From assembly GCA_026125285.1 (NCBI GenBank), contig JAHCLO010000007.1:1-64000 (forward strand): a DNA stretch of 64,000 nt. The letters are read 5' to 3'. Source of the stretch: Verrucomicrobiia bacterium. Lineage in GTDB: Bacteria > Verrucomicrobiota > Verrucomicrobiia > Limisphaerales > JADLHS01. The notes beneath the pieces were generated by a model that was given only the letters and a program-made list of their open reading frames with translations, searched no databases and was not told the DNA's origin. Positions 38,985 to 64,000 of the stretch are shown in pieces (the stretch's first letter is position 1; the number at the start of each line of letters is the position of its first letter). A program made the translations under genes and the position numbers.

Positions 38985-39122
38985 TCATGCCGCTGCGGCG
39001 ATAATGTTGTTCTTCAACGCGGTGAAGATGCTTTCAAAAATCCATTTGCCGTCGTCGCTACCGAGCAGTGGTTCGCAGGCGCGTTCGGGATGCGGTATCA
39101 AATTGATTTCCAATTGCTCCAT
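38985..39122 (-). pseudogene. third copy of the purQ 3' tail (tail C)
   Basis: Encodes [19 protein letters not shown] and on to AAAA-stop, the last 38 or so residues of PurQ including the catalytic His-x-Glu motif. An upstream ATG (MEQLEINL) makes a 45-residue frame. By hand it has 5 mismatches in 84 bases against the real purQ, only one of them changing an amino acid. It starts one base after the higA-like stop. It cannot be a functional amidotransferase. It is probably the oldest end of purQ, displaced by insertions. Confidence 0.88.
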
Positions 39123-39123
39123 G

Positions 39124-39348
39124 TCACGCCAGTTCCGCCACATTATCGTCCTCGTATTTTTCAATGAGCACGCCGAGCACCTCCATCATGGACGCGAGCG
39201 GATGGCTTTCATCTTCGCCCACTTCATCCACGAGACGGTCGAGCTGCTTCACAAGCTGGCGGTATTCGCGGTCGTTGTGCGGCACGCGCAGGGCGGGTTC
39301 GACGTGTGGCCAGGCAGCAAAGGCTTTATTCAGTTGTGCGGTTGACAT
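39124..39348 (-). CDS. short HigA-like antitoxin
   Basis: A 74-residue acidic protein (REYRQLVKQLDRLVDEVGED, HPLASMMEVLGVLIEKYEDD) matching the N-terminal region of HigA-type antitoxins. The usual C-terminal helix-turn-helix is not present, so it is either a short natural form or cut at the junction with the purQ tail. It lies 1 base after the HigB-like toxin gene, the toxin-first order typical of higBA. Confidence 0.65.
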   Translation of the reverse strand: MSTAQLNKAFAAWPHVEPALRVPHNDREYRQLVKQLDRLVDEVGEDESHPLASMMEVLGVLIEKYEDDNVAELA

Positions 39349-39349
39349 A

Positions 39350-39643
39350 TTACTTTTTCACTTTCCATTTGCCCGCGTCGTATTCGGCATGGGTCAGCAC
39401 GGCGCGAATATACACCTTGCGCCGATTATAGTGAATCGCGGCAATCAAGCGAGCCTTGTTGCCGCCGATGTTGAAAACCGTCAGCCCGCCGACCTGATCC
39501 GCGTGCGGGAGCAACCAGCGCAACGCGGCAAAGTTCTCGGGATTATTCTGCTTCAGCACGCGATACCAATGCGCCAGCCCGCTTGTCGCCGTCGGGTGTT
39601 TCCCGGCAAATTCATTCAGGCGTTTGCGCGTAATGATGTGCAT
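39350..39643 (-). CDS. HigB-family mRNA interferase toxin
   Basis: A 97-residue basic protein (MHIITRKRLNEFAGKHP, LAHWYRVLKQNNPENFAAL, ARLIAAIHYNRRKVYIRAVL, HAEYDAGKWK). This is the full pattern of the HigB toxin family, related to RelE, which cleaves mRNA on ribosomes. It is paired with a short HigA-like antitoxin directly downstream. A truncated relative is present at 60171-60413. Confidence 0.85.
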   Translation of the reverse strand: MHIITRKRLNEFAGKHPTATSGLAHWYRVLKQNNPENFAALRWLLPHADQVGGLTVFNIGGNKARLIAAIHYNRRKVYIRAVLTHAEYDAGKWKVKK

Positions 39644-41378: not shown

Positions 41379-41495
41379 GCTCAAAAGCCTATGCTTTGTA
41401 TTTTTTAGCCAAAAACAGCCAAAAAGTATATTCCGAACTATACATAAATTGAAAAAAAGTGGTGTTCGATGGCTGATTGCAATGCATTTCTGGAA

Positions 41496-41606
41496 TCATG
41501 CCGCAGCGACAGGCTGATCTTTCAGCGCGGTAAAAATACTTTCAAAAATCCATTTGCCGTCGTCGCTGCCGAGCAGCGGTTCGCAGGCGCGTTCGGGATG
41601 CGGCAT
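41496..41606 (-). pseudogene. second copy of the purQ 3' tail (tail B)
   Basis: An intact 36-codon frame from ATG to TGA reading [18 protein letters not shown] and ending QPVAAA. It aligns with the last 39 codons of purQ. By hand 8 of 87 bases differ, all but one synonymous, and the extreme C-terminus differs. It begins 17 bases after the hicB stop. The pattern suggests an allele from a related strain rather than a fresh duplication. It may or may not be translated. Confidence 0.9.
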
Positions 41607-42027: not shown

Positions 42028-42741
42028 TCACGCCGCCGCTGCCGCGACGGCTTTGTTCTTCAACGCGGCGAAGATGCTTTCAAAAATCCATTTGCCGTCA
42101 TCGCTGCCGAGCAGCGGTTCGCAGGCGCGTTCGGGGTGCGGCATCAGGCCGGCCACATTGCGCTTCTCGTTGCAGATGCCGGCGATGTTCAGTAGCGCAC
42201 CGTTCGGATTTGCGCTGTCGGTCAGGTTTCCGTTGGCGTCGCAATACTGCCAAAGGATTTGATTGTTGGCCTTGAGCTTTGCGAGCGTTTCTTCGTCGGC
42301 AAAGTAGCAGCCTTCGCCGTGGGCGATGGGAAGGCGAAGCAATTTCCCGGACGGAATCTGGTTGGTGAAGGGTGAAGCCGCCGTGGCGGTTTTCAGGAAG
42401 ATGAATTCGCAGTGGAACTGCAGATCGCGATTGCGGATGAGCGCGCCGGGGAGCAGGCCGGCTTCTGTGAGTACCTGAAATCCGTTGCAGATGCCGAGCA
42501 CCAGACCGCCGTTGTCGGCGAATTGTTTCACGGCTTGCATGACGGGGCTGAAGCGCGCGATTGCGCCGCAGCGCAAATAATCGCCGTAGCTGAAACCGCC
42601 GGGCACGATGACGCAATCGGCGTCGCCGAGGGAACTTTCCTTGTGCCAGAGCAGTCGTGCGGAATGGCCGAGGTGGCGGATGGCGTGGACGGCGTCCTGG
42701 TCGCAGTTGGAGGCGGGGAATTGGAGAACAGCGAAATTCAT
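42028..42741 (-). CDS. purQ: phosphoribosylformylglycinamidine synthase, glutaminase subunit
   Basis: Supplies ammonia from glutamine to PurL. The 237-residue class I amidotransferase has the nucleophile cysteine in [12 protein letters not shown] and the catalytic His/Glu in [11 protein letters not shown]. The start [14 protein letters not shown] is the family's normal start. Its 3' end, from the MPHPER motif onward, is repeated at 41496-41606 and 38985-39097, with accessory genes between. purS lies upstream and purL 3.8 kb downstream, all on one strand. Confidence 0.95.
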
Positions 42742-42742
42742 T

Positions 42743-42814
42743 TGCGTGATGCGTGATTCTTGATGCGTGAATCGTGTTGCGGAATTCCTTTCACGCATCA
42801 CGCATCACGCGTCA
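42743..42814. repeat. GCGTGAT tandem/inverted repeat between purS and purQ
   Basis: Tandem GCGTGAT units (TGCGTGATGCGTGATTC, TGATGCGTGAATCG) on one side face CACGCATCACGCATCACGC on the other, so the spacer can form a long hairpin. It separates two genes that must be made in stoichiometric amounts, and could affect read-through or mRNA stability. Confidence 0.7.
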
Positions 42815-49866: not shown

Positions 49867-50037
49867 ATGGAAGCCAGCGGCGGTGCGGGTACGCTTGAAC
49901 ACATGGCCGAGGTGCTGCTCGAGGGCAAAGCCGACGCCGTCCTCGCCGCAAGCATTTTCCACTTCGACGAATACACCGTTGGCGAGGTGAAACAGTTTCT
50001 GGCCCGCAAAGGCATCCCTGTCAGGTTGGAAGGATGA
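49867..50037 (+). pseudogene. duplicated hisF 3' tail
   Basis: An intact 56-codon frame ([20 protein letters not shown] and on to PVRLEG). By hand it differs from hisF in 7 of the first 126 bases, four of them silent third positions, and the last residues differ. It cannot form a TIM barrel. It is positioned just before hisI and is probably the original end of hisF, displaced by insertion of the preceding gene. Confidence 0.92.
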
Positions 50038-50159
50038 AGTGTTCGGCCGATTCTCGTGGTGGTTTCCATCCCAGGCTCCAGGATTTGCGTCACCCGGCGA
50101 CATTCGTTCCACTCTTTTCCATCGCAATTCACCCATCATAACACTAGATTCCCGACTGC

Positions 50160-50549
50160 ATGAGCTTCTACGAGAAACTGAAATTCGACGCGAATGGATT
50201 GATCCCGGCCATCATTCAGGAACAGAAGACAGGGCGCGTGGTGATGATGGCGTGGATGAATCGCGCCTCGCTGGAAAAGACCATTGAGACGGGCAAAACG
50301 CATTTCTGGAGCCGCTCCCGGCAGAAGTTCTGGATGAAAGGCGAGGAAAGCGGCAACACGCAAACCGTGAAGGACGTCGCGTTCGATTGTGACGGCGACA
50401 CGTTGCTGATCCAGGTGGAGCAGCACGGCCCGGCGTGCCACAAGGGTTTCCAGTCCTGTTTCTTTCGTTCCATCGAGGGGAAAGGTGAAACATTCAAGAC
50501 CACAGAACCGCAACTGCTCTCGCCCGAGCAGATGTACAAGAAGAAATGA
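50160..50549 (+). CDS. hisI: phosphoribosyl-AMP cyclohydrolase
   Basis: The third step of histidine synthesis. The 129-residue single-domain enzyme has [34 protein letters not shown] and the metal-binding [21 protein letters not shown] with the key Asp, Cys and His residues. No HisE domain is fused. It was presumably adjacent to hisF before the insertion. Confidence 0.95.
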
Positions 50550-50551
50550 CC

Positions 50552-50617
50552 GCGCTGCCGTGCAGCTTGCCGGCGGTTCACACTAATGGTACTGCGGGCG
50601 GGACGCACAGCAGCACG
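50552..50617. repeat. diverged CGCTGCCG/CAGCACG repeat
   Basis: CGCTGCCGTGCAG on the left and GCACAGCAGCACG on the right are degenerate inverted ends of the same family as 61632-61710. It occupies the short space before the next gene. Confidence 0.4.
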
Positions 50618-50625
50618 TTGATCTC

Positions 50626-51189
50626 ATGGACGAATCCATTCCTCTCGCCAGCCGCGACTACTTCATCTTCGTCGCGGTGTTGTTGTTTTCCCGGGGGATG
50701 GATTTTCTCAGCACGTGGATTGCCACCCCGCATTTGGTGTTGGAAGGAAATCCGATTGCCAAGTGGCTCGGTTGGAAATGGGGCGCGCTGGTAAACGTGG
50801 CGCTGGTCGGCTCGCTGGCTTTGTGGCCGCTCTCCGCGATCATCGTCAGCACCGCCAGTGTGCTTGTGGCCGCCCGCAATTTTCAATCTGCCTGGCTCAT
50901 GCGCTCCATGGGCGAGGAGACTTACCGGGAGTGGTATGTGCAGCGGATGAGCGAGACCCCGGTCACGCTCTATCTCTCCTGCCTGGCGGGAAACACATTG
51001 CTGCCCGCGGCTATTGGGGGAGCACTGATCCTCTTCAGCACCACACGGGATTATGTCTTGCTCGTGCCCTTGGGGATCGGCGTCGGCGCCATTGCCTATT
51101 CCGTCGCGGTGATCGTCTTCACCCTGCTGGCTCTTTGGCGCAACCGCCGGCGCCGAACGACCACCTTCGATGCGGAGGGAATGGAGTAA
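50626..51189 (+). CDS. small membrane protein, about four spans
   Basis: A 187-residue protein. Hydrophobic segments occur at about residues 10-25, 53-82, 115-137 and 143-168. The amphipathic SRGMDFLSTWIATP with NPIAKWLGWKWG resembles DUF5658-type proteins, but I am not sure. The C-terminus is basic (WRNRRRRTTTF), so probably cytoplasmic. It lies between hisI and trpE on the same strand. Confidence 0.6.
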   Translation: MDESIPLASRDYFIFVAVLLFSRGMDFLSTWIATPHLVLEGNPIAKWLGWKWGALVNVALVGSLALWPLSAIIVSTASVLVAARNFQSAWLMRSMGEETYREWYVQRMSETPVTLYLSCLAGNTLLPAAIGGALILFSTTRDYVLLVPLGIGVGAIAYSVAVIVFTLLALWRNRRRRTTTFDAEGME

Positions 51190-51308
51190 TCTAAGCGGTG
51201 GGCAAGCCGGGCCGCGGGTGATTGCCACGCCAAATGACCGCCGGGAGACATTCAGTTTTCTCCTGTCCCCCAACGGAAGATTTTCGTAACATCTGGGAAA
51301 CAATAGCT

Positions 51309-52877
51309 ATGATTACGCCATCATTGGACGAATTTCTAAAACTGGCGGAACAGGGCAACCTGATCCCTGTCACCGCGCGTATTCTTGCCGACATCGAAAC
51401 GCCGCTCTCGGCGTATCGCAAGATTCGCGGCCAAGGTGAATCGTTCCTGTTTGAGTCGGTGGAAGGCGGCGAGCATCTTGGGCGCTACTCGTTCGTCGGC
51501 TGCAATCCGCGGGCGGTCATCAAACAGACGGGGAATCGCGTTGAGGTGATGGAGGGAGGAAAAGTCATCGAATCATTCGAGGTAGGTAGGGCGGGCAGTC
51601 CTCTGCCCGCCGCCCCTGATAGCGATGAAGTACGGCGCGCACGAAGTGAGGTGCCCTACCAGGCGAAAGACGGCCTCGAAGTCGTCGAACGCGTGATGAA
51701 GAAATATCGCCCGGTCACCCTACCGGGCTTGCCGCGTTTCACCGGTGGCGCCATTGGCTATCTCGGCTACGAGTTCATTCACGACGTCGAACCCGTCGTC
51801 CCGCGCCCGCCCCATGATGAACTCGGCACGCCCACCATGTATTTCATCGTCGCGGATCAGTTGCTCGTGTTCGACCGCGTCGCGCAGACCATCACCGTGC
51901 TGGTGAACGCCGCGATTGATGAAGCCGCCAGTCCTTCTGAAGCGTATGAAAGTGCGTTGGAGGAAATCGAACGCCTGCTTTCCTTGCTGGAACAACCGTT
52001 GGAACACGTCCCCGTTTCCGTCCCATCCGAAGTCCCATCCGTCCCATTTCACTCAAACGTGGCAAAGGATAAGTTCTTGGCGAACGTTCAAGCTTCCAAG
52101 AAATTCATCACCGCCGGCGACATCATCCAGGTCGTCGGCTCGCAACGCTTCAGCGTCGAGACCAAGGCCTCGCCGGTGGACGTTTACCGCGCGGCGCGTT
52201 CGGTAAATCCTTCGCCCTACATGTTCCTGCTCGAACTGGACGGCTTTTCGCTCGTCGGCGCGTCACCGGAAATTCATGTGCGTTGCGAGGACCGCAAAGT
52301 TGAGATTCGCCCCATCGCCGGCACGCGGCAACGCGGCAAGACGCCGGACGAAGACGCCGCGTTGGAAAAGGAACTCCTCGCTGATCCGAAGGAACGCGCC
52401 GAACACGTCATGCTCGTGGACCTCGCCCGCAACGACATCGGGCGCGTGTGCGATTTCGGCAGCGTGCAGGTGCGCGACCTGATGATCATCGAACGTTACA
52501 GCCACGTCATGCACATCGTGTCGAGCGTCGAGGGCACACTCGCGGCGGACAAAACCAATTACGACCTGATGCGGGCAACGTTTCCGGCGGGCACGGTGAG
52601 CGGCGCGCCGAAGATTCGCGCCATGCAGATCATCGCCGACCTCGAAGGCACGACGCGCGGGCCGTATGCCGGATGCGTGGGCTACTTCAGCTTCAACGGC
52701 AATCTGGACACGTGCATCACCATCCGCACCGCGCTGCTCAAAGACGGCAAAGCCTATGTGCAAGCCGGCGGCGGCTGGGTGAACGATTCCGAACCCGAAG
52801 CGGAATTTCAGGAAACGGTGAACAAGAGCAAAGCCATGCTCAAAGCCGTGGCACTGGCGGAGACGTTTGGGAAATAA
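51309..52877 (+). CDS. trpE: anthranilate synthase component I, with a repeat-derived insert
   Basis: Converts chorismate to anthranilate for tryptophan. The 522 residues include the N-terminal regulatory region ([15 protein letters not shown]), [12 protein letters not shown], the catalytic [10 protein letters not shown]..., [39 protein letters not shown] and the final [15 protein letters not shown] and [17 protein letters not shown]. The start [13 protein letters not shown] is typical. A palindromic repeat is translated within it (residues about 93-118). Its last 90 bases recur at 59213-59300. Confidence 0.95.
51585..51660. repeat. GGTAGGGC-ended element inside trpE
   Basis: The ends GGTAGGGC and GCCCTACC are inverted copies around a 76-base unit. 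It is translated in frame as [20 protein letters not shown]-type sequence between VIESFE and [13 protein letters not shown]. Same family as 20754-20830. Confidence 0.85.
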
Positions 52878-52969
52878 TCCGCCTTGGACAGTTTTTGACC
52901 GAGTGCTCTGGAATACTTTGCGGTGAACATTGCGGAATGAACATGCTCTAGCTTAACTTGCGTTTGCCC

Positions 52970-55900
52970 ATGCTGCTGGAACAAGCAACTCGCGAACTCG
53001 GTTGGCCTGAACGTCGGCAGGTATTAAAGCCTTCCGGCGGCGGCAATCGCGTTCTCGCCCAATTGGCCCAGGAAAAAATCGGCCTTCCGCTTAAGCAGCT
53101 AGACGCGAGCGTTCAAGTTGGAATTCTATCACCCGCTCCAGCAACCAACAGCACCGAAGCGCCGTTGGCAATTGTCTGTGAGTTTTCCAAACGCCCCTCA
53201 GATCAGCAGTTGCAGTTCGCTCACAAGCTCGCGTGGAATTTTTGCCGCACGCGATTGTTGATCACGGCGGAGCGCGACCGGCTGCGCGCGTGGACGTGCT
53301 GCAAACCTCCGACCGCCGACCTCCAGAGCAAACTGGCTTTCGATTCAAAAGCAGACGGCGGGCAATCCAATCTTCCTTCACTTTCACAGACGGCAGCCAG
53401 CGCGCTGCACTGGGTGAATTTGATTTCGGGCGAGTTTTTTCGCCAGCGCCCGAAGCAATTTCGCGCCGAGGAGCGAGCGGACGCCCTGCTCTTGAGCAAC
53501 CTCCGATTTGTCCGCAAGGAGTTGCTCGACGCGAAACTTCCGAAGGATGTCTGCCATGACCTGCTCGCGCGCCTGATCTTCGTCCAGTTTCTGTTTCATC
53601 GTAAGGACAAAACCGGCAGGCCGTTCCTTGATGACAATCTGATGCAAGGGCGGTTGCAGGGAACGTTGTCAAAACCTCACGACGGACTCGAATCCATCCT
53701 GACCGACCTCGACGACACTTATGAATTGTTCAAGTGGCTGAACGGGAGATTCAACGGCGACCTTTTTCCCGGGAAAGGCAGTTCGGCGGCGGCGCGGGCG
53801 CGCGAGTGGGAGGAGGAAAAGGAGCAAATCAAGCCGAGGCATTTGAAATTGCTGACGGATTTTGTTTCCGGGCGGATGCAGATGGACAGACGCCAGCCCA
53901 CGCTGTGGCGTGAGTATTCCTTCGACACAATTCCACTGGAATTCATCAGCAGCGTCTATGAACAATTCGTCAGCGAAGACGCCGAGAAGGACAAAGCTTA
54001 CTACACGCCTGCCCATCTGGTGGACTTTGTGCTGGACGACGCGCTGCCGTGGGACGGCAAGGAGTGGGATTTGAAGATCCTCGATCCTTCGTGCGGCTCG
54101 GGAATCTTTTTGGTCAAAGCCTTCCAGCGCCTCGTCCGTCGCTGGCGCAACGCCCACCACGGCAAAGCGCCGAAAGTTCCCGACCTCAAGCCGATCTTGG
54201 AGAACAATCTGTTCGGGGTGGACATCAACCGTGACGCAATCCGCGTCGCATCATTCAGCCTCTACCTGGCAATGTGCGACGCGATTGACCCGCGCCACTA
54301 CTGGAAGCAGGTCGTGTTTCCGCGCTTGCGCGACCGCCGGCTCATCGCGCGCGATTTCTTTTTGGAAACCGAGCAGGGCTTTCGCACGGAGCAGGACGCC
54401 GGTTCGTTCGATCTGGTGATTGGGAACGCGCCCTGGGGGAAGAATTCGATTAAACACAGCGCCGTAGCCGCCGACTGGAGAGTGAAACACGAGTGGCCGG
54501 TCACTTACGGCGACATCGGCCCACTCTTCCTCGCCAAAGCCGCGAAGCTTCTGAAACCCGGTGGACAAGCGGCGATGCTTCAACCTGCTACAGTTCTGCT
54601 GTTCAACCGCTCCAAGCCAGCCGTTGAAGCCCGGAAGAAGCTGTTCGAGTCGGTCACGGTCGAGCAGGTCGTGAATCTGTCACCTCTGCGATTTACGTTG
54701 TTTCCCGAGGCAATTGGCCCGGCGTGCGTGCTTGCATTCAAGAACGAACCGCCCGCCGAGGGCGCAAAGCTCGAATACATCTGCCCAAAACCACTCAAGA
54801 CGAGCGAGGACAAGTATCGCGTTGTTATCGAACCGCAGGACATCCACACCGTGCCGGTTCACACCGCCGCCAACGATCCGTTTGTCTGGACCGCGTTGGC
54901 GTGGGGAAGTTGGCGCGACTTGGAGTTGTTGAAGCGGTTGCGCACAAACCCGAACCTAGAAAAATACAAAGCCGAAGGGAAAATTCACACGGGCGAGGGC
55001 ATCATTCGCGGAACTGACCAGAAACGGCACGCTTGGTTGCTGCACAGGCGAATTTTGGAAGCCAAAGATTTTCCTGAGGGCACATTCGTTCATTTGCACG
55101 CGAATCGGCTGAAGAAGAACGAAGACCCGATGGCAGAGCGGCCTCGCACGCCTCAAATTTTTCAGTCGCCACAACTGATCATCAAGCAGAGTTGGCTTGA
55201 AGGTCCGGGCCGTTTTCAAGCCGCTCTCGTGGATACGCCTCCCGAAGATGAGGGCGTGCTCTGCTCTGACAGTTACGTCACCGTTCACGCGCCACCAGAG
55301 CACCGCGAAATCCTAGAAGCCGCGTGGCTTGCACAAAACAGCAAGTGGGCAACGTATTATCAGTTGCTCACGAGCGGGAGATTCGGGGCATTCCTGCCGC
55401 AGCCGTTGGAAGATGAGTTGCGGAGTCTTCCGCTCCCTGAACCAAGTCCAGGCCTCTTAGATGGCATCAAATCGCTTGCGGACGCAGACAATCGCATCCG
55501 CGCTCTGATTCGTTTCAAAGAAAGCGAATGGACGTTAATCGAAGATTTGTTCGAGTTCACGCTCCCTGATTTCAAAGGAGACGCCCGTTCGCCCGGACGC
55601 CTGCCCACGCTCCGAAAACTTCACGGCCACAAAGGCACGGTGGAGTCCGACCTTCAAGGTTACGCCGGGCAATTCATCCGAGTGCTGAAAGCTGGGTTCG
55701 GTGATGAAAAGGACATTTGCACCACGATCTTTCAAGAACCGCTGGCGGCACGTTTGCCTGTGCGGCTACTGGCGATCCATTTGGACTGGCCGGGCCGGAA
55801 ACTTGTGGAGATTGCGCCGATGGATTCAGAAGCATTGCTCCAGAGGCTTGCCAAGCTTTACACCGAGTGCATGAAAGCACCGGGCAACGCGAGTGGGTTT

Positions 55901-56068
55901 CACTTCGAGCGAAGCGCGCGACTCTATGCCCCGCATCTAACGCCCGACGGCAAAGTGCCAACCGTGTTCTTGATCAAACCTGATCAACGCCGCCAGTGGA
56001 CGCGCTCGATGGCGATGCGCGACGCGGATGAAGTCGCCGCCGAAATCATGCAGGCGAAATGGAAGTGA
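52970..56068 (+). CDS. N6-adenine DNA methyltransferase of a type IIG/Eco57I-like system
   Basis: A 1032-residue protein. Central methyltransferase motifs are the SAM loop LDPSCGSGIFLVKAFQ, FGVDINRDAIRVASFSLY and the catalytic motif IGNAPWG (NAPW in place of the common NPPW/Y). The C-terminal half looks like a target-recognition region. The N-terminal 250 residues are helical with no clear nuclease motif; the next gene may supply cutting. An in-frame TTG at 52958 is an alternative start. It is the first gene after trpE in the island closed by the trpE tail copy. Confidence 0.85.
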   Translation: MLLEQATRELGWPERRQVLKPSGGGNRVLAQLAQEKIGLPLKQLDASVQVGILSPAPATNSTEAPLAIVCEFSKRPSDQQLQFAHKLAWNFCRTRLLITAERDRLRAWTCCKPPTADLQSKLAFDSKADGGQSNLPSLSQTAASALHWVNLISGEFFRQRPKQFRAEERADALLLSNLRFVRKELLDAKLPKDVCHDLLARLIFVQFLFHRKDKTGRPFLDDNLMQGRLQGTLSKPHDGLESILTDLDDTYELFKWLNGRFNGDLFPGKGSSAAARAREWEEEKEQIKPRHLKLLTDFVSGRMQMDRRQPTLWREYSFDTIPLEFISSVYEQFVSEDAEKDKAYYTPAHLVDFVLDDALPWDGKEWDLKILDPSCGSGIFLVKAFQRLVRRWRNAHHGKAPKVPDLKPILENNLFGVDINRDAIRVASFSLYLAMCDAIDPRHYWKQVVFPRLRDRRLIARDFFLETEQGFRTEQDAGSFDLVIGNAPWGKNSIKHSAVAADWRVKHEWPVTYGDIGPLFLAKAAKLLKPGGQAAMLQPATVLLFNRSKPAVEARKKLFESVTVEQVVNLSPLRFTLFPEAIGPACVLAFKNEPPAEGAKLEYICPKPLKTSEDKYRVVIEPQDIHTVPVHTAANDPFVWTALAWGSWRDLELLKRLRTNPNLEKYKAEGKIHTGEGIIRGTDQKRHAWLLHRRILEAKDFPEGTFVHLHANRLKKNEDPMAERPRTPQIFQSPQLIIKQSWLEGPGRFQAALVDTPPEDEGVLCSDSYVTVHAPPEHREILEAAWLAQNSKWATYYQLLTSGRFGAFLPQPLEDELRSLPLPEPSPGLLDGIKSLADADNRIRALIRFKESEWTLIEDLFEFTLPDFKGDARSPGRLPTLRKLHGHKGTVESDLQGYAGQFIRVLKAGFGDEKDICTTIFQEPLAARLPVRLLAIHLDWPGRKLVEIAPMDSEALLQRLAKLYTECMKAPGNASGFHFERSARLYAPHLTPDGKVPTVFLIKPDQRRQWTRSMAMRDADEVAAEIMQAKWK

Positions 56069-56077
56069 ACTTCTTGC

Positions 56078-56785
56078 ATGAGGCGACGCCAAACCATCAG
56101 CGATCAAGTCTGGTCCAAAGACGTCTCGTTCAATTCCCTCAAAGCGTGGCGCGCTGACGCCGCTGTCGTCATTCTCCGGCGCGTGTGGGCTGCATACGAC
56201 AATCTTGGCGCGGACGTTTTGAATAAGGTGAATTGGGACGCTGCGGAAGATGAACTCGAACGCAGCCTGACATTTTACCACAGCGTAAAGATTCAAGAGC
56301 TTCAAACCGGTGACGAGCCTTTCATCCTGATTCCCGAGACGCCGGAATTCGAAACCCGCAAACCTGCGCCCGCACGATCCGCAGCATACGACTTTGGATT
56401 CGTCATGCGCGGCGGCGATTGGTCAATGATCTGGCCGATTGAGGCCAAGGTTCTCAGGACCGACCGGAAGCTCTCCGGCTACCTGCGGGATTTGGATGAC
56501 AAATATCTGAAGTGCAAAGGTGCGCCGTTCTCGCATGAAGGCGCTTTGATTGGTTACTTGATTTCCGGAAGTCCCATTGTCGTATTTGATGGAATCGCGG
56601 CGCATATCGGACAACTGTTGTTCTCGCCTCACGAGTTCGCTGGCCGAAATCACCGCACCTCCACTCACAAGCGGGAAGTGCCGCACGGAAAGCCTTATTC
56701 AAAGGATTTCCTCTGCCATCATCTCGTCATGGAAGTCCGGGAATCCCTTCGCAACCAACAGTCCCTCACCTTGGCCACTCGCTGA
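56078..56785 (+). CDS. probable PD-(D/E)XK restriction endonuclease subunit
   Basis: A 235-residue protein beginning 9 bases after the methylase, so a two-gene operon. The segment YDFGFVMRGGDWSMIWPIEAKVL supplies an Asp followed by E-x-K, the core of PD-(D/E)XK nucleases. There is no signal peptide or membrane span. As partner of the methylase it would form a restriction-modification unit. The last 20 bases overlap a convergent fragment. Confidence 0.65.
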   Translation: MRRRQTISDQVWSKDVSFNSLKAWRADAAVVILRRVWAAYDNLGADVLNKVNWDAAEDELERSLTFYHSVKIQELQTGDEPFILIPETPEFETRKPAPARSAAYDFGFVMRGGDWSMIWPIEAKVLRTDRKLSGYLRDLDDKYLKCKGAPFSHEGALIGYLISGSPIVVFDGIAAHIGQLLFSPHEFAGRNHRTSTHKREVPHGKPYSKDFLCHHLVMEVRESLRNQQSLTLATR

Positions 56786-57383
56786 TGCGTGACCACGATT
56801 TCCGCAGCCAGCGCAGGTATTCTTGCGGTTTCGGCATCCGATTCGCGACGCTGACGCTGCCCAGTGATTTGTCCGGCCAGAGATGCAGTCGGTCGGCCAC
56901 GCCCACTTCGGCGGCCAGTCGTCCCACGGTTTGCAGCGCGTTCACGGCGTAATCCTGCCAGCGCTCGCGGGATTCAAACACATCGGTCTTCAAGGCCACA
57001 CCCAGTTCGTCGGCGTGGGTCTGGATGCGTTCCACGTTCTCGGCGCGGATGTTGATCGGTTCGTGAAAGATGGTAACGGATTTGATTTCGGCCACGGCCT
57101 GGAGCGTCGCGCGCAAATCCGTCTCGTCACATTCAGGATAGGTGGGCGCGACGGCCACATAGATGTTCAGTCCCGCTTCATGGGCGGCGCGGAGGGTGGC
57201 GAGGCGTTGCGATGGCGCGGGCGCTTTCGGTTCGTAAATCTTCGAGAGATCGTTGCGCAACGTTGGCAGGCTCATGCCGAACAGCAGGCGCGGGCCAAAG
57301 CTCTTGAATAAATCGAAATCCGCCCGGGCGAGGGGGCTGCGGGTGAGGATGCGGACGTTGAGCGTGGAGCGATCGCGAATCAA
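56766..57383 (-). pseudogene. C-terminal half of a spore-photoproduct-lyase-like radical SAM protein
   Basis: The 205 codons (LNVRILTRSPLARADFDLF, GMSLPTLRNDLSKIYEP, TIFHEPINIRAENVERI) match the C-terminal part of SplB-like radical SAM proteins. The N-terminal CxxxCxxC cluster domain is missing. The only available start is a TTG overlapping the stop of the HNH gene. It is a truncated gene. A 200-base part (57012-57212) is repeated at 58286-58504, on the other side of the HNH gene. Confidence 0.8.
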
Positions 57384-58231
57384 TTGGAGCGAACGGGACG
57401 AGTTGGCGCGCGTGGGCGAGGGAGAACCATCCGCACCGCGCGGAGCATTGCCCCACGTCCCTCATCCAAGCGATTTTCGTTCACGCGCCAAATTCCGGCT
57501 CGTCTCTTGGTATCAGGACACGGCGCAATCAAATATCGGTCCATCGCCCAATGATGATTCGGACATAACGCGACGCCGTTTGTCGGCTTGTCGTTTCGGC
57601 TGACGCGAAAAGGAATCAGGTGTGCGGCCTCCACCAGAGTTATCTGCGAATCGAGCACGACGCGAATTCCACAAGCCGCGCAACGATAATCGTAGATTTC
57701 GAGAATAGTTCGTCGAAATGCGCCATCACGTCCCGGAGGCAGTTCATCGCGCAAGGCGTCGGCTTTAGGAACGACTCGACTGGTAGCCACGAGTGCCGCC
57801 AGCTTTTCCCGCTCATCGGGGAAATAGCGAGCGATGAGAGCCTCGCGCAGTTGATGTCGAGCCACGGATTCGTGCAGCAAGTTCCAAAGTCCGTCAGCGA
57901 ACTTTGCGTGAGCAACGCGGCGACGCAATTCTGCCACACTCGGAGCGCCCGAAGCAGCGCCCTCCCGATAGATTTGGGTTTCGCCGGGCCGCGGCACGAG
58001 AAACCAGAACTTGTCACCGGAGAGATGGAAGAATGGATTTTGAATCGTGGGTTTGTCGTCATGCTTGGACACGACGGCAAAGTATCGCTTGAACGTGCTG
58101 ACGAGTTCTTCGTCCAGCAGGATGGCATTGTTCGTGATGACGCCACGATCCAACAAATCAATGACGCCAAGCAACAAAACAGGCTTGTGCGGCCGCTCAT
58201 ACGAGCCGCTTTTGTCACGGCGGAGAACCAA
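57380..58231 (-). CDS. HNH endonuclease of the McrA-like restriction type
   Basis: About 283 residues from a TTG (VLRRDKSGSYERPHKPVLLL). The N-terminal domain (RPHKPVLLLGVIDLLDRGVI, NPFFHLSGDKFWFLV) is the one typically found before HNH nuclease domains in restriction enzymes. The C-terminal HNH has CAACGIR, VEAAHLIPFRV and GVALCPNHHWAMDRY with the catalytic histidines. The frame stays open upstream through a repeat and a radical-SAM fragment to 58504, so the natural start may be lost or the protein chimeric. Confidence 0.75.
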   Translation of the reverse strand: MVLRRDKSGSYERPHKPVLLLGVIDLLDRGVITNNAILLDEELVSTFKRYFAVVSKHDDKPTIQNPFFHLSGDKFWFLVPRPGETQIYREGAASGAPSVAELRRRVAHAKFADGLWNLLHESVARHQLREALIARYFPDEREKLAALVATSRVVPKADALRDELPPGRDGAFRRTILEIYDYRCAACGIRVVLDSQITLVEAAHLIPFRVSRNDKPTNGVALCPNHHWAMDRYLIAPCPDTKRRAGIWRVNENRLDEGRGAMLRAVRMVLPRPRAPTRPVRSN

Positions 58232-58240
58232 GTTTCGACT

Positions 58241-58281
58241 CCTCTCCCCGGCCCTCTCCTCGTTCGAGGAGGAGAGGGTGA
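58241..58281. repeat. short CTCTCCCCGG-family element
   Basis: CTCTCCCCGGCCCTCTCCT faces AGGAGAGGGTGAG: a reduced member of the family found in purL and at 46305-46495. It lies exactly between the radical-SAM fragment and the HNH coding sequence. Confidence 0.75.
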
Positions 58282-58285
58282 GCAG

Positions 58286-58504
58286 ACCGAGCGCCCTCGC
58301 GTGGGCTTCGATTCGTTCCACGTTTTCGGCGCGGATGTTGATCGGTTCGTGAAAGATGGTGACGGGTTTGATTTCGGCCACGGCCTGGAGCGTTGCACGC
58401 AAATCCGCTTCGTCACACTCTGGATAGGTGGGCGCGAGGGCCACATAGCCGTTCAGGTCGGCTTTACGGGCAGCGCAAAGCGTGGCGAGGCGTTGCGACG
58501 GCAC
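58286..58504 (-). pseudogene. second fragment of the radical SAM gene
   Basis: Encodes SQRLATLCAARKADLNGYVA, TYPECDEADLRATLQAVAEI and FHEPINIRAENVERI, a diverged copy of codons 58-124 of the fragment at 56766-57383. Both ends are cut. It is in frame with the repeat and the HNH gene downstream, so a fused product is possible. Confidence 0.85.
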
Positions 58505-58561
58505 GGAAGCTGAACTGGTCTGTCGAGAACGAGCCTCATGGCACTGGTCAGCATCCGCGTC

Positions 58562-59161
58562 CTACTCTCCGTCGCCCAGTGCGCCCAGCCGCCGGCCCTG
58601 TTTTGAATCTGCGATCAGCCGGGCCAGCCGGCGTTGGCGGGTTTCCTTCTGCTTGGCGCTCATGACGAAGAAGCAAGCCAGGCGACGATACCCCGGTGGT
58701 TGTCGTTGGAAATAGTCCCACGCGGCTTGGTCGAACTTGAATTGCCGCTGCAAAGCCGGGGACAGTTCGCGGGGTGGGTTCTCGAAGGAGTACACGCCTG
58801 ACTTTTCAGGGCGGCGGGCGGCGAAGGCTTTCAGGCCCGCCAGGCTCATGCGTCCGGCGGTTTTCAATCTTTTGACGTGACGGATGTTGACGAGACTCCA
58901 ATTGCTCGTCGGTCTGCGCGGCGTGAACCGTTGCGTGAAACTCAGTTCGTCCACCCGCTTCCGAACGCCATCAATCCAACCAAAGCACAACGCTTCGTCC
59001 AAGGCCTCCGCGTAAGTGAGACCGCCTTGGCGCGAAGCTTTCAGGTAAAAACCGACCCATAATTCACTCGTGCTGGCATGATTCGCCTGCAGCCAGTTGC
59101 GGAAATCGGCGGCGGATTTGAAGTGTTTTGGTTTCACGGTCACGCGAGGGATTCTATTCAA
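58562..59161 (-). CDS. YdeI/OmpD-associated family protein
   Basis: A 199-residue cytoplasmic protein with the family blocks FRNWLQANHASTSELWVGFY, TYAEALDEALCFGWIDGV, TPRRPTSNWSLVNIRHVKRL and PPGYRRLACFFVMSAKQKETR (the C-terminal OmdA-like part). Family members have been tied to bacteriocin or peptide resistance; the biochemical role is unclear. It is complete and is the last gene before the trpE tail copy. Confidence 0.88.
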   Translation of the reverse strand: MNRIPRVTVKPKHFKSAADFRNWLQANHASTSELWVGFYLKASRQGGLTYAEALDEALCFGWIDGVRKRVDELSFTQRFTPRRPTSNWSLVNIRHVKRLKTAGRMSLAGLKAFAARRPEKSGVYSFENPPRELSPALQRQFKFDQAAWDYFQRQPPGYRRLACFFVMSAKQKETRQRRLARLIADSKQGRRLGALGDGE

Positions 59162-59212
59162 TTTGCATTGCAGGTGTCAGCAGTTGACTGGCCGGCCCAT
59201 CAGATTCCAACC

Positions 59213-59300
59213 GGAAGTGGAATCTCGGGAAACGGTGAACAAGAGCAAGGCCATGCTCCAGGCGGTGGCATTGGCGGAGACGTTTGCGAAAACGGCGTAG
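59213..59300 (+). pseudogene. duplicated trpE 3' tail
   Basis: Encodes [20 protein letters not shown] then ETFAKTA-stop, aligning with the last 30 codons of trpE (52785-52877). By hand 9 of 78 bases differ, and there is one small deletion at its left end. It lies 6.3 kb from trpE, on the same strand, closing the methylase/nuclease island. Confidence 0.9.
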
Positions 59301-59309
59301 CCACCAAGG

Positions 59310-59744
59310 TTACGAGGCGACCGTGTGATGGCTTTGAGTTCTTCTGGTAAAGCGTTCCTTGAGCCAGACCCCAGCAGCGATGAGCATGACGACTCCCAAC
59401 AGATCCAGGTGTTCGGTCGGCAGTCCTCGGAAGGAATCTGCCCACTGGATTATCGCTGCGGAAATCGCGAAGACCAAGGTCGCGACGGTGAGCGCGGTCA
59501 CGGCCAACGGAAGCAGCACTCGTTCAAACCACGGGAACGGTTCCGGTGTCAACGCAACCACCATCCGATCGGCGAAGTCTTTGGGCAGACTGAAGCCGGG
59601 CGTTTCGTCCAAAGCCGCAAAGACCGTCCGATAGGCAGCGAGGTCCGCCGACAAATCATGCGGCGGCTTGCCGGACAGAAGTTCACCGTTGCGTTCGTGC
59701 TCCAACGAGTCCTGGAGGTGGCGATTCCGTGTGTCTTCGTTCAT
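59310..59744 (-). CDS. probable anti-sigma factor-like membrane protein
   Basis: A 144-residue protein. The N-terminal 65 residues are acidic, soluble and helical (LQDSLEHERNGELLSG). Two membrane spans follow (LPLAVTALTVATLVFAISAAI, DLLGVVMLIAAGVWL). It overlaps the sigma-factor remnant by 4 bases, the usual sigma/anti-sigma coupling. No zinc-binding HxxxCxxC is seen. The assignment rests mainly on context. Confidence 0.6.
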   Translation of the reverse strand: MNEDTRNRHLQDSLEHERNGELLSGKPPHDLSADLAAYRTVFAALDETPGFSLPKDFADRMVVALTPEPFPWFERVLLPLAVTALTVATLVFAISAAIIQWADSFRGLPTEHLDLLGVVMLIAAGVWLKERFTRRTQSHHTVAS

Positions 59745-60187
59745 GGTACGTTTTCCTTTCCAAGTTTCCGGAGCAACCGGTCTTTCAACATCTGTCGGGC
59801 GCGAAACCGGTGACTCTTGCTCGTTCCTTCGGGCAGGGCGGTAACCTTCCCGATTTCCGCCACCGACATGTCGTCGAGGTGATAAAGCGTTACCACAGTC
59901 TTCAACAGGGGCGGCAGATCGTTCACACTCCGACGCACGAGGTCGAATGCCTCCTGGCTGGCCAGTGCGGCTGCGGGGGACGGGCCGGAAACGCCGCGCG
60001 CATTAGGGAAACGTTGATTTAATCCCCCCAGCTTGGAATTGTTGGCGACGGTGCGGCGTGGATTTTCTGAACTGCGTGCATGACGCACCAGACCACGTTT
60101 GGCCACACAGAGTTCGCCGCCAAGCAGAAGATCACCCGCCGTTAATAGTTCCTCGCCCGCATGGAAGTAGTCATCCCGCTGGGCCAA
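59741..60187 (-). pseudogene. truncated ECF-type sigma factor (region 4 only)
   Basis: Codons covering 59741-59959 encode AFDLVRRSVNDLPPLLKTVV, LYHLDDMSVAEIGKVTALPE and GTSKSHRFRARQMLKDRLL, a sigma-70 region 4 helix-turn-helix. Sequence before this in the frame does not look like a protein, and region 2 is absent. The 5' half has evidently been replaced, next to a HigB fragment. It is unlikely to work as a sigma factor. Confidence 0.7.
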
Positions 60188-60413
60188 GCTGCTGGCTGTA
60201 CTCGATCCCTACTACCCCGCACTCTGCTACGTTGATGCGTTCTCGGGCACGAACTACAACAAGCAGATCTGCCTGCGCAAACACCTGCCGCAGTTTGACA
60301 AAGTGCGCGGTATTGTTCCGTTTCAACTGGCGATACCAATGCGCAAATCCGGTCTTAGCCGATGGGTGCTTTCCGGCACATTCATTAAACTGTCTGCGAG
60401 TGACGATGTGCAT
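60171..60413 (-). pseudogene. truncated HigB-family toxin
   Basis: MHIVTRRQFNECAGKHP, GFAHWYRQLKRNNTAHFVKL matches the first half of the HigB at 39350-39643; after VFAQADL the similarity ends. The C-terminal catalytic part is missing and no antitoxin follows. It starts 23 bases after the end of the fumarate hydratase gene, on the same strand. Confidence 0.82.
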
Positions 60414-60436
60414 GACGCCTCAAGCCATTCGCCATC

Positions 60437-61315
60437 TCAATAAAGCCACTTCTGAATCTCCCCCTTCACCCCCAGCGTCACCCCTTGCCGCCGGTACGCC
60501 CAGCACATGTAGCTCACGCTCACGAAATACGACGCCGGCAGCCGGTTGGCCGCGCAGATTTTCACGCCCAGCAACGTCGTCTTGCCGCCAAAACCCATCG
60601 GGCCGATGCCCAGTTCGTTTGCGGTTTTCAACACGTCTTGCTCCAGTGCATCCAATTCGGGATTCGGATTGCGGTCTTCGAGCCGTCGCAGGAATTGCGT
60701 CTTGCTCAACTCGTAGCCCGTGGCGCGGTCGCCGCCGATGCACACGCCGAGGATGCCCGGCCCGCAGCCTTTGCCCTGCGCCTGCAACACCGCGTCCAGA
60801 ATCGCCTTGCGGCAGCCGTCGAGGTCACGGTTTGCCTTGAGCTTCTCGGCAGGCAACGAGTATTGCGCGCCGACGTTTTCGCAACCGCCTCCCTTGAGCA
60901 CAAGCCGCACACTGACTTCCGGCGCGCGATGCTGATGAAAATGAAAACTCGGCGCGCCCGGTCCGACGTTCGTGCCGTCGTTTTTGCCGGTGAGCGAATC
61001 CACGGAGTTCTGGCGGAGAAAACCTTTTTTCGTCGCGAGCGTCACCGCTTCGCGCGCGGTGTCGGCGAAGGTGATCTGGTCGTAGCCGACCGGGCAATCC
61101 ACGTAAAAGAGAATGCTGCCAGTGTCCTGGCAGATGGGCTGCGATTTGTTTTTCGCCAGCGCGATGTTCTGGTCCACTATCTTGAGGGCGTTCTGGGCGA
61201 GCGAATCCTTCTGCTCGTTTTCCAGCGAGGCGAGGATGGCCTTGTGGACGTCGTCGGGAATCTCGGCCGAGGTGCGGCGGATCAGTTCGATAAGGGAGTT
61301 CAACAGTTCACTCAT
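60437..61315 (-). CDS. fumarate hydratase class I, alpha (N-terminal) subunit
   Basis: A 292-residue subunit of an iron-sulphur hydro-lyase (fumarase/tartrate dehydratase type). The three cluster cysteines are expected in QPICQDTGSILFYV, LKGGGCENVGAQ and GCGPGILGVCIGG. The end (FGGKTTLLGVKICAANRLPA, YMCWAYRRQGV) is typical. The beta subunit gene is not adjacent, so it should be elsewhere. It interconverts fumarate and malate in the citric acid cycle. Confidence 0.9.
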   Translation of the reverse strand: MSELLNSLIELIRRTSAEIPDDVHKAILASLENEQKDSLAQNALKIVDQNIALAKNKSQPICQDTGSILFYVDCPVGYDQITFADTAREAVTLATKKGFLRQNSVDSLTGKNDGTNVGPGAPSFHFHQHRAPEVSVRLVLKGGGCENVGAQYSLPAEKLKANRDLDGCRKAILDAVLQAQGKGCGPGILGVCIGGDRATGYELSKTQFLRRLEDRNPNPELDALEQDVLKTANELGIGPMGFGGKTTLLGVKICAANRLPASYFVSVSYMCWAYRRQGVTLGVKGEIQKWLY

Positions 61316-61631
61316 AATGCAGGTCCAGCCTAGGGCTTTCGCACCACACCGTCAACCGAAGCACTGCAACGAAACCGTGCAGCCATGACTGCGGTCATTG
61401 TGGGTGAGGCTTAATTTGTCGCGGCAAATCGGGTTTGCGGCTCAGGGATTCTCCGGGTGGACTTGCCGACCGGTCGTCGGCGCGAGAATGGATTGATTGC
61501 TTCACGCCGCTTCACGGCCAGCATGGTTTGAACCGAGGATTTCGGTCGCTGCAAGGGCCGGGCTTGACCAGCACGCGGACGTAGCGGCGACCTTCCCTCG
61601 CGGGCTGAATCGTGCGGTAGGTTATGAACAA

Positions 61632-61710
61632 CGTGCTGCCGCGCCTCTGGCTGGCAGGTCAAGTTTATTGGTGGACAGTGAGAACTGCCGGGGGGACGCG
61701 CGGCAGCACG
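61632..61710. repeat. CGTGCTGCCGCGC palindromic element
   Basis: Perfect 13-base inverted ends (CGTGCTGCCGCGC / GCGCGGCAGCACG) around a 53-base centre. Partial relatives are at 48102-48120 and 50552-50617. Confidence 0.8.
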
Positions 61711-61850
61711 GTCAGGATTGTGGCAGATTGCGACCTCCGACATTGGAGGCGCAGCGGGGACACGTACCGTGGGGCAAGCTTTCCGGTCTGCCAGTTCACC
61801 GGACATTCCAATCCGGTGTCCCGACGGGTGACCGGAATGTCGCCCGAACC

Positions 61851-61870
61851 GGCAGACAAGAATGTCTGCC
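61851..61870. repeat. GGCAGACA palindrome
   Basis: GGCAGACA-AGAA-TGTCTGCC, a perfect 8-base hairpin without a T-tract; REP-like. Confidence 0.65.
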
Positions 61871-62082
61871 CTGCTACCGACCGGGGCATGGGAAGCAGCG
61901 ATCACCCAAACGGGCGGGCGAAAGCTGAACACGGACCAGACGGAACGAAAAAGAATACCGCCAAGGAGATTCGGGAGCTTCGACGGGCCTGCCCCGTGGC
62001 CGTAGGCTATTACGGGGGCTGGTTCAACAGCGGCTAGCTTCAACGCTCCTTCGTTTCGCTCAATCGGTCATAGTCTTGGAGG

Positions 62083-62361
62083 TTAGCCATTCCTTCTGCG
62101 GTTGGCATAAATGCTCCTCCGCTTCTGGTAGTCCGCTAGTGAGTCGAAGACGAGATAGTCTGAAACCATCTCCCAAGCAACTGCAGCTTGTCCACCCTTG
62201 AGCCAATCGTTTCGAGAACCACCGACTGGCACTTCGCCGACTAGAAACAACCTGCCGCCCTGCCGCTCCCAACGCGGGTAAGCCAATGAGCGACTGCCGT
62301 CTGTCGTCATCCAACTCAGAACAACGACCTTCTTAGTAAAATCTGGGAGTTTGCTTCTCAT
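62083..62361 (-). CDS. small hypothetical protein
   Basis: A 92-residue protein (MRSKLPDFTKKVVVLSWMTT, GGRLFLVGEVPVGGSRNDWL, WEMVSDYLVFDSLADYQKRR). It has a normal amino-acid balance, alternating beta strands and a helical end, and no signal or membrane span. I recognise no family. Plausible composition and a lack of competing frames are the evidence that it is real. Confidence 0.55.
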   Translation of the reverse strand: MRSKLPDFTKKVVVLSWMTTDGSRSLAYPRWERQGGRLFLVGEVPVGGSRNDWLKGGQAAVAWEMVSDYLVFDSLADYQKRRSIYANRRRNG

Positions 62362-62613
62362 AATGCTGTGCTCGTAGCGGCCTAGACATTATGGCCTTCG
62401 ATGAAAGCGAAAGCAGTTTCTGGTCTCCGGAAACGTGCCTGGCAATCCGCGGTGCGGATGGCGGAGCCACAATTTGTCTGACTCCCGCCCCAAACAAACA
62501 ATGATCGAAGATCAACGACCACCGGGGGTTGAGCGCGGATGGCAAGGTTGAGGTTCACGTTGTCCATCATTGCGAATCGAGCATGCGCCCGGGGCAGAGG
62601 CGACACCCTGGTT

Positions 62614-63342
62614 TCAGTCGGTCGCCGCCAACGTCATGTCCCGGGTGTAGTAGAGAATCCGTCCGCAGTTGGTGCAGGTGACGATCTCCTGCTCCTGCTG
62701 GCAGGTGACGAGGACCTGCGCCGGCAGTTTCATGTGACAACCGCCGCAGACGCCATGCTGCACGCCCACCACCACGTTCTCACCCTTGCTCTTGACGAGG
62801 CGTTCGTAGCGGCTGCGCACGCCGCTGTCCACGGCGGTGGCGAGTTCCTCGCGGTCGCTGCCCAGTTGCGCCAGTTCCCGCCGGAGGCTTTGTTCGCGTT
62901 CGCCCAATCGGGACACCTGTTCGTCCGCCAGTTTGCGGGCGTCCGCCGCTTCCCGGGTGAGTCGCACCACTTCCTGCTGCACCTGTTCGGCCTGCTCCAT
63001 CAGTTCGATTTCCTGGTCTTCGATCTTGGTGATGTCGGCCTTGCACATCTCGATTTCGTGGGCGAGCGCGCGGTATTCTTCATTCTTGCGCGTTTGAAGC
63101 TGCTGGTTGGCGTAGCGTTCGATCAATTGCTTCTTTGCCTCTACGTCCAGTTCGAGCCGCTTGCGTTCGGTTTCGATCTGTTTGACGCGCAGTTTGGCGG
63201 CTTCCAGCCGGGCCTGGGCATCGGCGCCCTTGGACTTCAATTCCTGTCGTTCGGGGTCAATATGAGCGAGTTCACCCTCAATCCGGCGGAGGCGGCGGTC
63301 ACGGTCCTGCAGAATCAACAACTTCTCAATGGCATCTAGCAT
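62614..63342 (-). CDS. C4-type zinc-ribbon coiled-coil protein (CT398-like)
   Basis: A 242-residue protein. Residues 1-175 form a long antiparallel coiled coil (ELAHIDPERQELKSKGADAQ, EYRALAHEIEMCKADITKIE). The C-terminal zinc ribbon has CGGCHMKLPAQ and VTCTNCGRILYY, giving four cysteines. This is the widespread family typified by Chlamydia CT398, proposed to act in nucleic-acid- or secretion-linked processes. It is complete. Confidence 0.88.
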   Translation of the reverse strand: MLDAIEKLLILQDRDRRLRRIEGELAHIDPERQELKSKGADAQARLEAAKLRVKQIETERKRLELDVEAKKQLIERYANQQLQTRKNEEYRALAHEIEMCKADITKIEDQEIELMEQAEQVQQEVVRLTREAADARKLADEQVSRLGEREQSLRRELAQLGSDREELATAVDSGVRSRYERLVKSKGENVVVGVQHGVCGGCHMKLPAQVLVTCQQEQEIVTCTNCGRILYYTRDMTLAATD

Positions 63343-63369
63343 CGGTTCTCTTTCGTTCAGGCACGCAGG

Positions 63370-63597
63370 CTATGCGGCAGTTTGGGGCAAGTCAATGAAG
63401 GCCTCCGGCAATTTGGATGGTCTGGGCGTCGGCGCTGGCGGTTTCTGCTGATTGCTTTGTGGTACAGCGGTCATTTCCGTTCGCAGAAGATCATGCATGA
63501 CAAACATCCCCGGCTTGCGTTGCCGCGCATTGTCCGATAAGGTAACCACGTTGACGCCGATTGCACCCAGAAGCAACCGTCTGAATTTAACAATCAA
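63370..63597 (-). CDS. possible small protein of uncertain reality
   Basis: A 75-codon frame (MIVKFRRLLLGAIGVNVV, PPAPTPRPSKLPEAFIDLP) in the 282-base space between the zinc-ribbon gene and the superoxide dismutase gene. The Pro-rich end looks coding-like, but there is no recognised family and it runs head-to-head with a well-supported gene 27 bases away. Confidence 0.2.
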   Translation of the reverse strand: MIVKFRRLLLGAIGVNVVTLSDNARQRKPGMFVMHDLLRTEMTAVPQSNQQKPPAPTPRPSKLPEAFIDLPQTAA

Positions 63598-63624
63598 ACA
63601 TCATTAACGGAGCACCAAGACTAT

Positions 63625-64000
63625 GGCACACGAATTACCTTCGCTTCCCTATCCCAAAGAAGCACTGGAGCCGCACATTGACGCGGCGACGATGGAAATC
63701 CACCACGGGCGGCATCACAAAGCCTACGTGGACAATCTGAACAAGGCGATCAGCGGCACGCCGCTGGAAAGCAAATCGTTGGATGCGCTCCTCAGCGATC
63801 TGGCCTCCGTTCCCGACAACATCCGCGTCGCGGTGCGCAACAACGGCGGTGGACATTGGAATCACTCGTTTTTCTGGAGGCTCATGGCGCCAAACGCGGG
63901 CGGCGCTCCGGCCGGCAAACTGGCCGAGGACATCAACGCCGCCTTTGGCTCGTTCGCCGACTTTCAGGCGAAGCTCGAGGTCGCCGGCATTGGCCGTTTC
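63625..64000 (+). CDS. iron/manganese superoxide dismutase (5' part, cut by window end)
   Basis: The first 125 codons of a Fe/Mn-[23 protein letters not shown] carries the first metal histidine, [14 protein letters not shown] the active-site His/Tyr, and [18 protein letters not shown] the second metal histidine and conserved Trp. A GGAG ribosome-binding site lies 10 bases upstream. The C-terminal domain with the remaining ligands lies outside the window, so metal preference cannot be judged. Confidence 0.95.

Follow-up and report, generated by a model that had tools for sequence, protein, structure and literature searches.

The question raised by this locus is how a piece of a HigB toxin gene came to lie directly behind the gene of the fumarase alpha subunit, and whether it arrived there in the same way as the intact higBA pair found at the purQ gene of the same contig. 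The window referred to throughout is the whole analysed stretch of 64,000 nucleotides (contig JAHCLO010000007.1, positions 1 to 64,000 of the forward strand) from a Verrucomicrobiia bacterium. Its fumarase locus consists of the following features.

60437..61315, minus strand: fumarate hydratase class I alpha subunit, 292 aa, intact; the putative insertion target (PF05681, E=6.1e-68; TIGR00722, 2.3e-63)
60414..60436, no strand: gap of 23 bp from the fumarase stop to the HigB start, with scant space for a promoter of its own
60264..60413, minus strand: N-terminal HigB fragment of 50 codons, without the 3' half of the toxin gene and without antitoxin, assigned by homology to the purQ-locus higB
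60219..60263, no strand: unassigned filler of 45 bp between the IS fragment and the HigB fragment, outside the IS and HigB alignments
about 60003..60218, plus strand: IS5-family fragment comprising the outer end and the N-terminal part of the transposase, with stops and a frameshift (tblastn; DNA match to genome G001)
59741..60001, minus strand: remnant of an ECF-type sigma factor gene, truncated at the IS end and reduced to region 4 (Sigma70_r4_2, 8.6e-12)

An earlier note on this DNA, made from the sequence alone, had placed the HigB frame 23 bases after the fumarate hydratase stop, which is exact, and the start codon of the fragment is kept (60413-60411). The same note had taken the fragment for a truncated relative of the purQ-locus HigB. 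Both parts of this claim hold, as the two proteins share 57 % identity over 49 aa (E=6.5e-18), the purQ-locus HigB is matched by the fragment in a whole-genome search at E=4.8e-14, and the DNA is 75 % identical over 119 bp (E=5e-15), a homology well beyond the level of chance. The HigB homology ends at 60264-60267, at codon 49-50, and does not extend down to 60171 as the note had it; no match to the antitoxin HigA at E<=1 was found in window positions 50001-64000. Since only part of the domain is left, the fragment scores 18.2 bits with the HigB_toxin model (PF09907), under the cut-off of 27, compared to 91.4 for the purQ-locus copy, and an NCBIfam profile search gave no match. Among HigB loci it is matched in 104 rows at E<=0.01, making it homologous to accepted PF09907 members, with only 51-63 % identity to these HigBs in the best 15 of the 104 matches. 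A functional higBA pair comprises a complete toxin gene followed by its antitoxin gene, neither of which is present here. What the locus holds is a dead HigB relic sitting directly behind a housekeeping 3' end.

The relic does not abut the sigma factor gene, contrary to the earlier description, as the 45 bp of filler and the IS5-family fragment intervene. Annotated IS5 family transposases are matched at E=4e-7 (tblastn, with a query of two frames joined and the stops omitted), and G001, a genome of the same genus, carries two copies with 74-76 % DNA identity to the IS fragment, the outer end of the element included, while a Pfam search of the short transposase pieces gave no match. Transposase homology and an element end of the IS5 family are both present, in a fragment only. 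Because the IS5 fragment covers about 60003-60218, the supposed sigma ORF (59741-60187) begins inside the IS in antisense orientation; its first 62 codons are antisense to the fragment and sigma factor sequence is left only from about 60001 downward. The absence of region 2 from this ORF was correctly noted, Pfam giving region 4 alone at residues 83-134, and NCBIfam sigma models match the remnant under their cut-offs. The comparison with intact orthologues that had been proposed as a check found none at E<=1e-8 among 28 genomes, the own genome included; the two G001 matches of the ORF are confined to its first half, most of which is IS sequence. With its 5' part lost at the IS5 end and its ORF start being antisense IS sequence, the sigma factor was rejected as a member of the module. 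IS insertion and deletion, in an order of events that we infer, is the simplest account of the HigB and sigma truncations, and the HigB relic was probably truncated by such an IS-associated deletion.

The window itself contains loci at which gene ends occur more than once.

42028..42801, minus strand: full purQ gene, the comparison locus, its name read from the sequence; 3' end at 42035-42146
41493..41606, minus strand: purQ 3' end remnant 1, which shares 91.9 % with the full gene over 86 bp and is 84.7 % identical to remnant 2
39350..39643, minus strand: intact higB of the purQ locus (PF09907, 4.3e-26)
39124..39348, minus strand: ORF of 74 aa in the higA position, so called because of where it lies and because it is conserved downstream of higB in relatives
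38989..39100, minus strand: purQ 3' end remnant 2, downstream of higBA, with 89 % identity to the full copy
49873..50003, plus strand: hisF 3' end remnant, 131 bp, 94 %, behind a 207-aa ORF at 49068-49691 (hisF: TIGR00735, 1.1e-109)

As the purQ 3' end is present in three copies (42035-42146, 41493-41606 and 38989-39100), two insertions are stacked there, and an AAA_14/DUF4143 protein, a YhcG_C piece and higBA lie between the remnants. The ORF in the higA position gave no Pfam or NCBIfam match at E<=0.01. The purQ-locus HigB also matches the PADLOC model PD-Lambda-2_A (3.4e-21); relative to this PF09907/PD-Lambda-2_A type the fumarase fragment is homologous to the N-terminal half, while the C-terminal half and the antitoxin are gone. 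The ATPase encoded at 39936-41384 matches the candidate defence model PDC-S01 (1e-57). At hisF, the other partner region of the repeated 3' end is 48905-49063, and the 207-aa ORF has a weak DUF2204 match under the cut-off.

Such duplications recur at HigB loci of other genomes. In a loose test a direct repeat shared by the 300 bp upstream of higB and the 500 bp downstream of higA was found at 26 of 107 loci compared to 8 of 395 control positions, or at 23 of 102 loci once five contigs present in duplicate are removed, and in a strict test, with the upstream copy being the 3' end of an open frame, at 13 of 102 HigB loci compared to 3 of 249 control gene ends. The controls of both tests were random draws from the same loci, and loci with short flanks as well as the five representing the same contig twice (included in the 107, absent from the 102) were left out before the counts. 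The duplicated target is purQ in four cases (L081, L082, L086 and L107), and others, named by eye from the translation, are an Lrp-like regulator (L109, 111 bp, 95.5 %), a D-2-hydroxyacid dehydrogenase (L110, 44 bp, 93.2 %) and a transporter (L178, 177 bp, 95.5 %). Duplications are found beyond Verrucomicrobia too, for example in Desulfotignum (L178) and Nitrospirota (L172). The weaker cases among the 13 loci are L111 with 34 bp at 82 %, L107 with only a short open frame in the upstream copy, L086, whose given frame differs from the purQ frame although the duplicated gene is purQ, and some loci whose upstream frames carry no assignment, such as L164. Intact higBA loci have 3-33 bases between the upstream stop and higB (L081, L082, L107, L109, L110 and G048). 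An automatic screen listed 12 gene-end pairs in 479 kb of the window's genome, some of them by eye in repeat-protein genes, 10 pairs in 676 kb flanking HigB genes from other phyla, and one in 110 kb of Verrucomicrobia and related loci; because it counts antisense frames and repeat proteins it served for leads only, and genome-wide enrichment was dropped as a statistic.

The fumarase site itself was followed through relatives by searching the alpha gene in 57 genomes and then in 293 genomes of the order, 227 of which gave a match. The 83 loci retained have a complete alpha gene and include the window; they are the best-matching ones fetched and thereby a non-random sample of fragmented draft genomes, in which one G270 stretch is masked as N and scars may have been missed where little flanking sequence was available (241 bp in G014 and 456 bp in G192, for example). 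The beta subunit gene follows alpha at once at 38 of the 83 loci, and a full-length beta gene lies more than 160 bp from alpha on the fetched stretch at 19 loci. The window's genome, which belongs to the same family as G003, carries its beta gene on a separate contig (C7, 97375-97917; alpha at 60437-61315), the two being adjacent in many relatives. An ancestral higBA-fumarase neighbourhood, named in the earlier note as the finding that would overturn its reading, was not seen: the pair occurs among the matches listed only in G000 and G048, and together with the frequent direct succession of alpha and beta this led us to reject it. G048, a genome of another family, carries HigBA intact in this position behind fumarase.

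The gaps between alpha and beta hold several toxin families, namely PIN in G260, a zeta-like toxin in G208, a PemK/MazF-like one in G268 and a ParE-like one in G159. The gap ORF of G013 resembles the PIN ORF of G003, G085 has a DUF2283 match and a DUF4258 match under its cut-off, and further contents, partly searched and named at most by eye, include a transporter-like ORF in G018, a fucosidase-like ORF in G266 and others. At 3 of the 83 loci a second alpha 3' end of 129-191 bp and 89-96 % identity lies behind a small module, the repeated sequence ending at most 12 bp from the alpha stop.

G004: alpha 3' end duplicate, 170 bp, 95.9 %, behind a zeta-toxin-like ORF
G003: alpha 3' end duplicate, 129 bp, 94.6 %, behind a PIN ORF
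G008: alpha 3' end duplicate, 191 bp, 89.0 %, behind a weakly NUDIX- and MazG-like pair, both under Pfam cut-offs

The remnant of the fumarase end that was to be sought downstream in relatives is thus present. Truncated beta 5' ends occur at 8 of the 83 loci, seven of them recognised by tblastn (G003 with three copies, G085, G102, G183, G193, G268 and G270) and that of G056 by DNA comparison and by eye, so that 10 of the 83 loci have an alpha or a beta scar. Most beta remnants open with the ATG and run for about 50-110 bp before giving way to other sequence, which at several loci is the start of the next module; of the two remnants in G268 one starts within the gene, and the break in G270 is masked. 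By eye, the module behind the 107-bp beta remnant of G183 and that behind the 66-bp one of G102 have similar starts, and DUF4258-like modules follow beta remnants of differing depth in G268 and G085. As similar modules follow unequal remnants in both pairs, separate insertions are favoured. The G183 and G102 modules look like PIN-type ORFs elsewhere, the G183 protein having no Pfam match at E<=0.01. A MazEF-like module has an identical breakpoint in G193 and G268, both of one genus (by eye). In G056 (L044), about 2.5 kb behind alpha, a short beta 5' scar lies beside a module, and the 13.7 kb fetched downstream contain no beta gene.

The long target duplication is seen at the fumarase site of relatives and at HigB loci elsewhere, and is absent from the window locus. 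A lax search within about 6-6.4 kb downstream gave best matches of 9-11 bp, upon which a hidden copy of the fumarase end in the window was rejected. Without such a copy a module of the same kind is not demonstrable at this place, and the earlier description of a failed or deleted module of that kind is supported for the HigB relic behind a housekeeping 3' end, and not for a copy of the fumarase end or for the sigma factor.

We consider it probable, at roughly 60 %, that the HigB fragment is the relic of a toxin-antitoxin module that inserted behind fumarase alpha by a process duplicating the gene end and was later truncated by an IS5-family element. A small toxin-antitoxin module would have inserted directly behind alpha, at the junction joining alpha to beta in many relatives. 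In the parent process, found intact in relatives, the insertion of a small module duplicates about 45-190 bp of the adjoining housekeeping gene end; the gene thereby remains complete, and its former end persists as a remnant beyond the module. Further rounds stack modules with gene-end remnants between them. At the window locus, IS5-family insertion and deletion would later have truncated the module together with the neighbouring sigma gene. In the likely mechanism, incoming DNA of a related cell would be held by homology within the gene end and be joined on its other side without homology, and only insertions leaving the gene whole would survive. Modules between two gene-end copies, variable copy length and stacking are all observed. 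The fumarase-HigB fragment would belong to this class by analogy, since the window locus has neither a fumarase-end copy nor an antitoxin; the wider gene-end pattern is supported in relatives, resting on draft genomes and on the mechanism proposed here.

The origin of the duplicated ends bears on how such modules arrive. In G003, G004, G183 and G085 the remnant is nearer to another species' gene than to the functional copy of its own genome, the G003 remnant being 98.4 % identical to G004 and 94.6 % to its own copy, whereas in G008, G268 and G270 it is nearest to the own functional copy, as a plain target duplication would predict. The seven informative fumarase cases therefore divide into four foreign-like and three own-like ones, each judged on 60-170 bp and a difference of a few bases; G102 was excluded because its remnant alignment ran on into flanking DNA. 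As four of the seven remnants are closer to other species, DNA from related cells with a one-sided homology anchor is tentatively favoured. A transposon-like insertion with a long target duplication, both copies being resident at birth, is a reading that we would entertain only tentatively. The duplication length varies, from about 44 to 191 bp, and the copies are nearest to each other in L082 and L086 as well as in the three own-like fumarase cases, both of which would suit it, but the four foreign-like remnants do not, and neither do the inserts themselves: the ends of five lack terminal inverted repeats, upon which a transposon with inverted ends was rejected, and no transposase could be made out by eye in the ORF lists of the compact inserts.

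Less probable, and in our view unlikely, is that the modules reside in cassettes for which a carried gene end serves as the address and which travel as circles or fragments when the repeated ends undergo homologous recombination. At purQ, four genomes of three families have one and the same junction of cassette and remnant behind higA (by eye), and four of six remnants have their nearest match in the second copy of their own genome; this, like the shared breakpoint of the MazEF-like module in G193 and G268, would agree with travelling cassettes. Both shared junctions, however, also fit common descent, similar modules carry remnants of unequal length (G183 and G102; G268 and G085), and new targets would require a step free of homology. 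With a junction common to four genomes and host-like remnants in four of six cases, a single old insertion at purQ with later gene conversion is possible. The least probable alternative is that an IS5-driven rearrangement carried the HigB piece to the end of the fumarase gene by chance, unrelated to modules inserting at gene ends: the adjoining IS5 fragment, the lack of both a fumarase-end copy and an antitoxin, and the low identity to other HigBs (51-63 % in the best 15 of 104 matches) would fit, but the start codon is kept at 23 bases past the stop, where intact higBA loci have 3-33, and G048 of another family has intact higBA at the same place.

Long target duplications upon insertion of restriction-modification systems were reportedly described by Nobusato in 2000 and Furuta in 2010. 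According to a review, the target duplications that some of these systems make on insertion are long, of the order of 100 bp, and variable (PMC3874152). The insertions discussed here are alike in being small, selfish-type units with a long, variable duplication of about 100 bp, and differ in that the cargo is mostly toxin-antitoxin-like, the end of a housekeeping gene is duplicated and rounds stack; the window case is in addition decayed, and its duplication is absent. Of the IS5 family, the transposase N-terminal part and outer end are present between HigB and sigma as a broken remnant, which would explain the truncation and not the arrival of the module. Integron cassette arrays likewise stack compact small modules, many of them toxin-antitoxin systems. 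The stacking is similar here, whereas what recurs between the modules is part of the fumarase beta gene. One homologous and one non-homologous junction, as expected of homology-facilitated illegitimate recombination in natural transformation, would produce the layout observed here. In the literature searched, including passages of PMC2654758, PMC3874152 and PMC3031569, we found no report of toxin-antitoxin modules duplicating housekeeping gene ends, which is not proof of absence.

More speculatively, toxin-antitoxin modules of this lineage, and perhaps of several phyla, could be mobile cassettes free of a recombinase that land at housekeeping gene ends, each arrival bringing or copying a fresh end, preserving the host gene in full and leaving the old end as a scar, with the window HigB as a late array stage broken by an IS. 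If this is true, arrays of fumarase alpha, module, beta 5' scar, module and beta are a readable record of successive invasions, and gene-end scars would show where, how often and in which order modules arrived. The spread of small toxin-antitoxin modules without a recombinase of their own is an old question, and such landing would account for modules just behind housekeeping stops with scant promoter space. The scars would also make the mechanism testable, because each of the two copies of an end could be assigned to the resident or to a foreign source. Annotators would have reason for caution where a truncated gene end lies near a toxin gene, since it may be the scar of an insertion.

Further repeats were seen in the same genome. 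In the window, a 208-bp repeat of 87 % identity (57013-57220 and 58299-58506) belongs to a weakly radical-SAM-like gene and lies beside an HNH endonuclease-like ORF, whose frame continues from the repeated piece, and a 90-bp sequence occurs twice on the plus strand with 88 % identity (52785-52874 and 59203-59291). Outside the window, the same contig (C67) carries the 5' end of a GDP-mannose dehydratase-like gene (named by eye) three times at 147172-149355, with a DUF2442 ORF (1.9e-17) between two of the copies, and, at 124926, 125862 and 127382, three copies of the 3' end of a gene with a sulfur-carrier-like GG tail (by eye).
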